The notes beneath the pieces are model-generated. The model saw nothing but the letters and a program-made list of their open reading frames with translations, had not been told where the DNA came from and made no database searches. A stretch of 64,000 nucleotides of DNA from positions 1,575,001 to 1,639,000 of the forward strand of contig NZ_CP036281.1 of assembly GCF_007750395.1 (NCBI RefSeq), written 5' to 3'. The stretch comes from Polystyrenella longa (GTDB taxonomy: Bacteria > Planctomycetota > Planctomycetia > Planctomycetales > Planctomycetaceae). Numbering within the stretch: position 1 is the first letter of the stretch; each line of letters begins with the position of its first letter. Positions 11,754-16,770 of the stretch are shown in pieces. The position numbers and the translations under genes were made by a program.

Positions 11754-12422
11754 TTAGTTCTGGCGAGTCTGCTGGAACTTGGAATCGTTGACGGCACTTT
11801 TGACGTCCCGACGCTGTGGTGAGGCAGCGTTGCTGCGAGCAGCCTCTGTAGAAGCGGCTTCATTGGATGGGCCACTGTTGGATTTCCAGTTCGCTACGTT
11901 CCAGGCGGGGTAAGTCTGGGCGACGCTGTATCCCAGGTCTTCCAGAATTGTTCGCAATTCGCGAGCAGTCATGTTTTCGTTGGCAACAACTCGTTGCATT
12001 ACGAAACGACGGTTGCTGGCAATGTAGGCGAAGAATTTTCCGTTACCCAGACGATCATTCTCAGACAGAAGTCGGAGTAAGGAAAGTCGGGGAACATCGC
12101 CTGGTGATTTGGGAAGCTCGTCCAACCAGGCCATTACCCAGATCGATTTACCGTTCTGGCTGATTACGGCAGACATGGAAAGTTCCCACTCTTCTTCCTT
12201 GTGCATCGCTTTGAACTGGAAGTCATAGCGGGACTCTTCCTGTACCGTTTTCAGTCCCAATCCACCCAGCATGTTTCCAAGGTCTTCGTTCGTCAGTTGA
12301 CGAGCTGGGACAGCGGAGGAATCCGCCGCCTCGGCAGAGCTGGTCATACCGACTCCCACTGCCAATACTAGCAGCATTCCACAACAGGTGATTCCTGCAG
12401 TACGCGTCCACACGTTACTCAT
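11754..12422 (-). CDS. Exported YbjN-like protein
   Basis: A 222-residue protein with a signal peptide (about 1-33, cleavage near SAEAA). The start at 12422 is chosen because AAAGGAG lies 7 nt before that ATG; the frame is open further upstream, but that part looks non-coding. The central region (about 40-165) has the alpha/beta pattern of the YbjN/CesT-like sensory-chaperone fold, with LSLLRLLSENDRLGNGKF and a C-terminal helix TARELRTILEDLGY. The tail (about 180-222) is Ser/Ala/Asn-rich and probably disordered. The family assignment is by pattern and is tentative; no catalytic residues are seen. It is convergent with the esterase gene. Confidence 0.6.
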   Translation of the reverse strand: MSNVWTRTAGITCCGMLLVLAVGVGMTSSAEAADSSAVPARQLTNEDLGNMLGGLGLKTVQEESRYDFQFKAMHKEEEWELSMSAVISQNGKSIWVMAWLDELPKSPGDVPRLSLLRLLSENDRLGNGKFFAYIASNRRFVMQRVVANENMTARELRTILEDLGYSVAQTYPAWNVANWKSNSGPSNEAASTEAARSNAASPQRRDVKSAVNDSKFQQTRQN

Positions 12423-12596
12423 CAGACACTCCTTTGTCTTTGACTCTGTTTGTCTTTGTCTCGAAGTTTGACTGTTCAGGCAGGCGTTGGATTTGCAGTT
12501 ATCCTGCTCTGGTGACTCAATGTTCTGGGGGGGATGATTGTAACTTTTGCAAAGACCCCGTTGGGTTCCGTCCCACATTTCGTCAGGACAGTTCCC

Positions 12597-14054
12597 TCAC
12601 ACCAGCAGCTCCTTGAGGCAAATTTGCGACCAGGTCTCGAAATCATCAAGTTCCTGCCGTAATTCGTCCGGTGTGGCAAACCCTGTCTCTTGTATCGACT
12701 CTTCCCGTGGGTGAACTTTTGCCGATTCTAACTCAAATACGTGGACAACACCCAAATGGACCCGACCCACTTCGGTTTCGTCGTCATTAATCATTCCGAC
12801 GCATTCTTCTGTATAGGCAGACGCGAGATCAACTTCTTCCTCAATCTCCCGACGCATTCCTTCGCGATAGACCGATTCCGCATGGGAATCAATCGAAGAA
12901 ATGTGGCCGCCGATGCCGATCGAGCGTTTTTTCTTCAACCGGCTTTCACCTGAGGTACCACCTCGGCGATAGTAAAAAATCTTGCCTTCGTGGCGGAAAA
13001 TGCAATAAGGAATTAACTGCTTGTAGCTGGGATCCTCTTCCATCTCGTTGCGGGGGAGGTAGCTCGTATGCATCGGATCCAGCAAGGTTTTCAAGTACCG
13101 ATCCATGTCATCGGAAAATCCCTGGAAATGTCCCAGTTCGTGGAAAAGTAAGGTGGGAACGACGAGGACATGTTCAACATCCTGATGGGTCTCGGTCACG
13201 AGAGGCTCCTGAAGTGGTGAGAGGAGAATATGTGAAGTAAATAGAATAGAAGACTTAAGTGATATTGGGGATTTGGTTCCCAGAAGTTGCTGAACAGCGA
13301 CACCGATATCCGGTTGACGCATCAGCGATTCGCCGACCAGCATCGCCTGTACGTTTGCTTCCACCAATCGCTGAACATCGGAATGGGTTTTGATACCGCT
13401 CTCGCTGACGAATACAACATCGGTGGGAACCTGTTTTCGCAGGCGGAACGAATGTTCCAAATCAGTTTTGAATGTCTTTAAGTTACGATTGTTCACACCG
13501 ACCAGCTTCGGATTCAAACTGAGTACCCGATCCAGGTTTTCCGGTTCGTACAATTCGATAAGGGGTTCCATGCCAAGTTCCACCGAATAACCGTACAAGT
13601 CAGCCAGTTGTTCCTGCGGAAGACATTCGGCGATCAGCAGGATCGAGTCGGCTCCCGCGGCGCGGGCTTCAATTATCTGATACCGATCCAGAATAAATTC
13701 TTTTCGCAGCACTGGGATCTGCACGGCCTGCCGGACCGCTTTGAGGAAATCGAGATGCCCCTGAAAGTATTGTTCATCAGTTAAGACACTGAGGCAGTTG
13801 GCTCCGTTCGATTCGTATGTTTGTGCAATCTGAACTGGGTCGAAGTCGGCTCGTATTAAACCAGCGGAGGGCGAGGCCTTTTTCACTTCGGCGATCAACC
13901 CGACATTCGAGGCATTCCGAAGAGCCTGCACGAAGTCGCGCACTGGCGGAGCACTGTTCAGTTGCTCGCGCAGACTTTCTTCTGAGGTCTGCTGGCGTGC
14001 GCGGTCAATTTCTCCTCGTTTCGTCTGCATAATTTTTTCAAGTACATTGGACAC
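12597..14054 (-). CDS. trpC: Indole-3-glycerol phosphate synthase fused in frame to a Nudix-type phosphoesterase
   Basis: A 485-codon frame from GTG 14054. Residues 1-260 are a complete TrpC barrel with its catalytic motifs: Lys in [10 protein letters not shown], Lys in RKEFILD, Glu in LLIAE, Asn in VGVNNRNL and SESGI near the phosphate site. It closes the indole ring in tryptophan synthesis. Residues 286-485 match the COG4112 Nudix-type phosphoesterase family, with a Nudix-like stretch [13 protein letters not shown]...REIEEEV. The linker 261-285 has no homology I recognise. An AGGAG-GTG start signal sits exactly at the domain junction (13197-13210), so the second domain may also be made alone. 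TrpC is normally a single domain of 255-270 residues. Confidence 0.88.
13197..13210 (-). promoter_or_regulatory. Internal ribosome-binding site and GTG start for the Nudix domain
   Basis: On the minus strand AGGAG (13206-13210) is followed after 6 nt by GTG (13197-13199), in frame with the trpC ORF. Translation from here would give a 200-residue protein beginning with a Thr-Glu-Thr-His stretch just before EHVLVVPT, which is where free-standing COG4112 proteins normally start. This suggests separate translation as well as, or instead of, a real fusion. Confidence 0.6.

Positions 14055-16373: not shown

Positions 16374-16770
<397 letters not shown>

Follow-up and report, generated by a model that had tools for sequence, protein, structure and literature searches.

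A TrpC-Nudix reading frame in Polystyrenella longa that looks like a very young, probably incidental gene fusion

Introduction

The genome of Polystyrenella longa Pla110 (6,125,480 bases, accession CP036281, as given in the genome particulars of PMC7716846) contains a reading frame that runs without interruption from trpC into a gene for a Nudix-fold protein. How did these two genes come to share one frame, and does the junction represent an established two-enzyme protein, a recent change, or an error in the sequence? A preliminary description of the locus had left open a young fusion that still makes its second product alone, a pair of genes whose separating stop codon was lost, or a base-calling artefact. 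We addressed the question by sequence and structure comparison, starting from the window, that is, the whole 64,000-nucleotide stretch of DNA that was analysed. Targeted literature searches, which reached a part of the literature, returned no description of a TrpC-Nudix fusion.

Results

The frame opens with GTG, encodes 485 amino acids and contains no internal stop. As had been proposed, TrpC and a Nudix protein are read in one frame; we place that frame on the minus strand, where the preliminary description had given none, where TrpC comes first, then a linker of 26 codons, then a Nudix protein of 200 residues (Table 1).

Table 1. Features of the joined reading frame, in positions of the window
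Feature	Position	Strand	Basis or remark
Continuous ORF, TrpC + linker + Nudix	12597..14054	-	485 codons; sole stop-free spanning match among those listed
TrpC domain (indole-3-glycerol phosphate synthase), residues 5-257	13284..14042	-	PF00218, NCBIfam
Linker, 26 codons (260-285), probable former intergenic gap	13200..13277	-	length, GC3, pLDDT
CCCC run 5' of the out-of-frame TAA; possible place of a one-base mutation or sequencing error	13267..13270	-	sequence
TAA, +/-1 base relative to the TrpC frame; sole stop triplet of the linker in all frames	13255..13257	-	sequence
AGGAG, Shine-Dalgarno-like	13206..13210	-	same in both congeners
GTG, codon 286; in congeners the separate Nudix gene starts here	13197..13199	-	congener comparison
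Nudix-fold part, 200 aa + stop, TM1382-like	12597..13199	-	3E57 match, profile, Foldseek

The TrpC and Nudix assignments made earlier were recovered, by PF00218 for the first and by PDB entry 3E57 for the second. The TrpC part matches PF00218 over its full length (profile positions 1-254 of 254, E 1.9e-93, 312.8 bits against a gathering score of 27), which places it by sequence among the indole-3-glycerol phosphate synthases. The NCBIfam TrpC equivalogs NF001373 and NF001377 also exceeded their cut-offs, and several other NCBIfam models fell below theirs. The model for bifunctional TrpC-TrpF proteins, NF006945, missed its cut-off (274 versus 380 bits), its match stopping at protein residue 259, which is position 259 of 461 in the profile. 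A second enzyme lies C-terminal to TrpC in those proteins as it does here; the partner there is TrpF, whereas here it has a Nudix fold and the fusion is known from one genome only among the matches listed.

Residues 286-485 constitute a Nudix-fold protein by sequence and by AlphaFold model. The sole PDB sequence match up to an E-value of 1 was 3E57 (E 7.6e-21; 4.2e-33 with a profile), the structure of TM1382, which we take to be a putative Nudix hydrolase of Thermotoga maritima. The predicted structure of this part (pLDDT 90.1) matched 3E57 in Foldseek with TM scores of 0.80/0.87 and 30% identity across the whole Nudix half, and the PDB structures that followed were further Nudix structures; the model has the Nudix fold. 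The resemblance to TM1382 thus extends over both sequence and fold, but TM1382 is free-standing whereas its counterpart in P. longa is joined to TrpC. The Pfam NUDIX family PF00293 remained below its gathering score (18.0 versus 21.1 bits, E 0.0031), and was detected at E <= 1 in 10 of the 18 members of the family to which the Nudix part belongs, with a best value of 0.0016. The Nudix box motif is G-x5-E-x7-R-E-U-x-E-E-x-G-U; the family differs from it in spacing, with a longer loop, and its GGHIS and R-E-x-x-E-E elements do not vary across the 18 sequences. Literature text searches returned no described substrate for TM1382 (searched as TM1382) and no paper for the term COG4112, the family name put forward in the preliminary description.

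We then compared the junction with that of relatives. Both congeners, represented by the MAG contigs PABD01000038.1 (NAT128) and JAGQQC010000097.1 (HKST-UBA56), carry trpC and the Nudix gene in the same order, with the same CAGGAG-N6-GTG before the latter, and are 84-86% and 81-82% identical to the window across the junction; they differ in having an in-frame TGA shortly after TrpC, which the window lacks. A search of 170 genomes of the family, whose list is ordered by E-value and headed by the junction-spanning matches, had 26 one-frame spanning matches among those listed, of which 25 contained one to three stops and only that of the window none. Stops were likewise present in 17 of the 18 spanning matches listed for 397 genomes of the class (E <= 1e-120) and in 8 of the 9 listed in a profile search of 392 genomes of the phylum (E <= 1e-100), thresholds strict enough for distant cases to escape and applied to genome sets that overlap with each other and with that of the family. 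Finally, 44 of 45 trpC-Nudix locus pairs had an in-frame stop 0-19 codons beyond the TrpC match, in a sample that includes three duplicates (L055, L056 and, probably, L057) and is skewed towards same-frame pairs because the loci were taken from the best-scoring matches. One apparent second fusion, an open frame of 566 aa in genome G014, was rejected: its two parts lie in different frames and a stop follows TrpC.

Among the matches listed, the stop-free state was therefore found in one genome and not in further lineages. Because the congeners and the other spanning matches listed carry a stop after TrpC, this comparison indicates that the fusion is derived rather than conserved, and so far confined to one genome among those matches. 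The preliminary description had reasoned that its proposal would fail if every close relative made only one short TrpC product. The relatives examined do encode such a TrpC, and this excludes an old, conserved fusion, but not a new loss of a stop. Its first two readings, a young fusion and a lost stop codon, amount to the same event, which the relatives support; the artefact it had offered as a third is the less likely account.

To place the two genes in a wider context, we examined their arrangement in 59 genomes, comprising that of P. longa, 36 relatives of the same family and 22 genomes of other families. By hand count, trpC and the Nudix gene lie on the same contig and in the same direction in 20 of the 36, within about 250 nt of each other in 19 of these and 1.2 kb apart in the remaining one (G021). 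In 12 others they are on different contigs, three have one gene only and one has neither. None of the 22 genomes from other families showed an adjacent pair. Judged from this gene order, trpC and the TM1382-like Nudix gene are old neighbours, arranged this way in many members of the Planctomycetaceae. Chance alone would put about one third of neighbouring pairs in a shared frame, and the observed 5 of 20 is near that.

The gene that follows (11754-12578, minus strand) had a relative in 43 of 56 loci with the Nudix gene; two of these 43 (L067 and L112) had no trpC match, and the Nudix gene may be more tightly tied to this gene than to trpC. Its product had no Pfam match above cut-off. By eye it resembles an exported protein, with a hydrophobic stretch after an internal ATG; the listed ORF is probably over-long at the N-terminus, an internal ATG (protein beginning MSNVWTRT) being the likelier start. 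Elsewhere in the window, tRNA-Leu (anticodon taa, 16687-16770, plus strand) was the only tRNA gene found, and the listed ORFs that overlap it are unlikely to be genes.

Measured from codon 260 to the GTG, the linker is 78 nt long, compared with 81 and 102 nt in the two congeners, and has no in-frame stop. Third-position GC content is 0.556 in TrpC and 0.555 in the Nudix part but falls to 0.35 over codons 262-287, a low value which suggests that the linker was formerly intergenic DNA. An open linker is by itself unremarkable, since 46% of shuffled linkers also lacked an in-frame stop. The TAA at linker nt 20 (counting from 0) lies one base out of frame, and the in-frame TGA of congener G001 is at nt 21. 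A one-base insertion or deletion in the TrpC tail, perhaps at the CCCC run, is a plausible cause of the stop loss, but the argument from stop placement is weak: among shuffled linkers the probability of a stop is 0.032 at exactly nt 20 and 0.127 no more than 2 nt from nt 21, and for an out-of-frame stop anywhere in the first 24 nt it is 0.419. Alternatively, the stop may have gone through a substitution or through some larger change in the gap. From the comparison with the congeners the gap evolves fast, and the three linkers align no better than shuffled sequences (87, 210 and 125 of 500 shuffles reached the respective scores). Programmed frameshifting was also considered and set aside, as inspection by eye revealed no slippery heptamer in the linker.

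AlphaFold modelling of the whole chain (pLDDT 86.0, pTM 0.57) gave two confident domains and values below 50 at residues 262-291, in part because the underlying alignment has no rows across the linker.

Immediately before the Nudix part, AGGAG is followed after a 6-nt spacer by GTG, in frame and exactly where that part begins. This bears out the internal start signal proposed at the domain junction, as well as the suggestion that free-standing Nudix proteins begin there: the Nudix genes of both congeners start at this GTG. Only one other in-frame AGGAG or GGAGG with a start codon occurs in the ORF, at its last codon. When the codons of the gene were shuffled, such a site fell within codons 262-296 with a probability of 0.026; this value and the identity of CAGGAG-N6-GTG in both congeners argue that the signal is more than chance. 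Its retention fits continued production of the Nudix part alone, as far as can be read from sequence.

RNA structure at the internal start was examined as a further feature and rejected (z -1.04; 32 of 200 shuffles folded equally well or better). CTCCT and AGGAG in the linker (13197-13230, minus strand) could pair in P. longa and mask the internal start; the fold is no better than that of shuffles, and by eye the pairing is not seen in the congeners. Between 12400 and 14600 we detected no promoter-like sites and two terminator-like sites, fewer than the shuffle mean of 2.6, neither of them within the linker.

As a control for sequence quality, we set 864 kb of the P. longa genome against 1.13 Mb from congener G002. 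An initial comparison, which still included shadow frames, yielded 53 ORFs totalling 18,300 aa; none of them was split between frames, and 13 had stops in the alignment. Restricted to non-overlapping ORFs, the comparison again comprised 53 orthologous ORFs, now 19,844 aa in total and with the TrpC and Nudix genes among them, and again none was split. In-frame stops appeared in the alignments of eight: three with a single stop within the first 25 columns, one with a stop two columns from the end, and the remaining four with two to four stops each. In our judgement these eight reflect wrong starts, wrong ends or non-genic frames; setting them aside leaves 45 ORFs and 16,701 aa. The TrpC-Nudix ORF was the sole P. 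longa ORF that joined two adjacent ORFs of G002; one other gave short partial matches to ORFs on two different contigs.

Discussion

Together, these observations appear to suggest that the fusion is of recent date. We consider it probable that loss of a stop codon in the P. longa Pla110 lineage joined two old neighbours, with little effect on fitness, and we would expect two products from the joined frame. In this scheme the trpC stop would have been lost, perhaps because the short tail of TrpC gained or lost one base and the old stop thereby fell out of frame. The Nudix gene would have happened to occupy the resulting frame, across a short, AT-richer gap that offered no further stop in that frame. 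On completing TrpC, ribosomes would then continue into the Nudix part, giving a TrpC-linker-Nudix chain in which the two enzymes fold separately, and the retained AGGAG-N6-GTG would still permit initiation of a free Nudix protein. The composition of the linker and the uniqueness of the fusion suggest a recent and probably near-neutral change. A more pointed version, in which the cell makes both the fused enzyme and the free Nudix protein from a just-born fusion while the unfused parents persist in sister species, is one that we offer tentatively and with some doubt.

The most substantial competitor to a real stop loss is that a base was missed, for instance in the CCCC run, or miscalled, so that P. 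longa in truth has two genes. A single missing base would indeed leave the only stop triplet of the linker one base out of frame and near the position of the stop in G001, as observed, and the stop-free state is a singleton among the matches listed in the genome searches. According to a survey of frame transitions (PMC3711429), many singletons among them are likely to be errors; for singleton frameshifts with BLASTp validation, sequencing error was the expected cause, not a real indel. That point concerns frameshifts within genes and counsels caution for a gene junction. Against an error stand the absence of any split frame from the control, which makes an artefact less likely, the modest length of the CCCC run (four C) and the rapid evolution of the gap, where a real change needs no special cause. 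An error thus seems unlikely to us, and a real change in a fast-evolving gap the more likely explanation of the sequences compared. A still less probable proposal, one that we regard as very unlikely, accepts the fusion as real and holds that it is functional and selected, joining TrpC and Nudix so as to unite related reactions or their regulation. The frequent adjacency of the two genes in the family and the intact appearance of both domains speak for it, and there is precedent in PMC4921024, which records fusions of TrpC with TrpF as well as a Nudix fusion from which a function in the thiamin pathway arose. The confinement of the stop-free state to one genome among the matches listed and the intergenic-like linker speak against selection, as do the near-chance sharing of frames among neighbouring pairs, the separation of the genes onto different contigs in a third of the same-family relatives and the lack of adjacent pairs in the 22 genomes compared from other families.

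Recent stop loss in the Pla110 lineage is therefore the reading that we prefer, and the fusion appears very young and is probably incidental: an ordinary evolutionary step caught early, gene fusion by stop loss being a known kind of event. If the sequence is right, the locus offers a clean first step of gene fusion in an operon-like pair, with the upstream stop lost, the downstream start kept and the unfused pair still present in sister species. A "TrpC-Nudix" architecture entered in annotation would rest on one genome and is not to be taken as a sign that the Nudix protein acts in tryptophan synthesis. As a clue to what that protein does, the older neighbourhood of trpC, the Nudix gene and the conserved third gene is more useful than the fusion itself.
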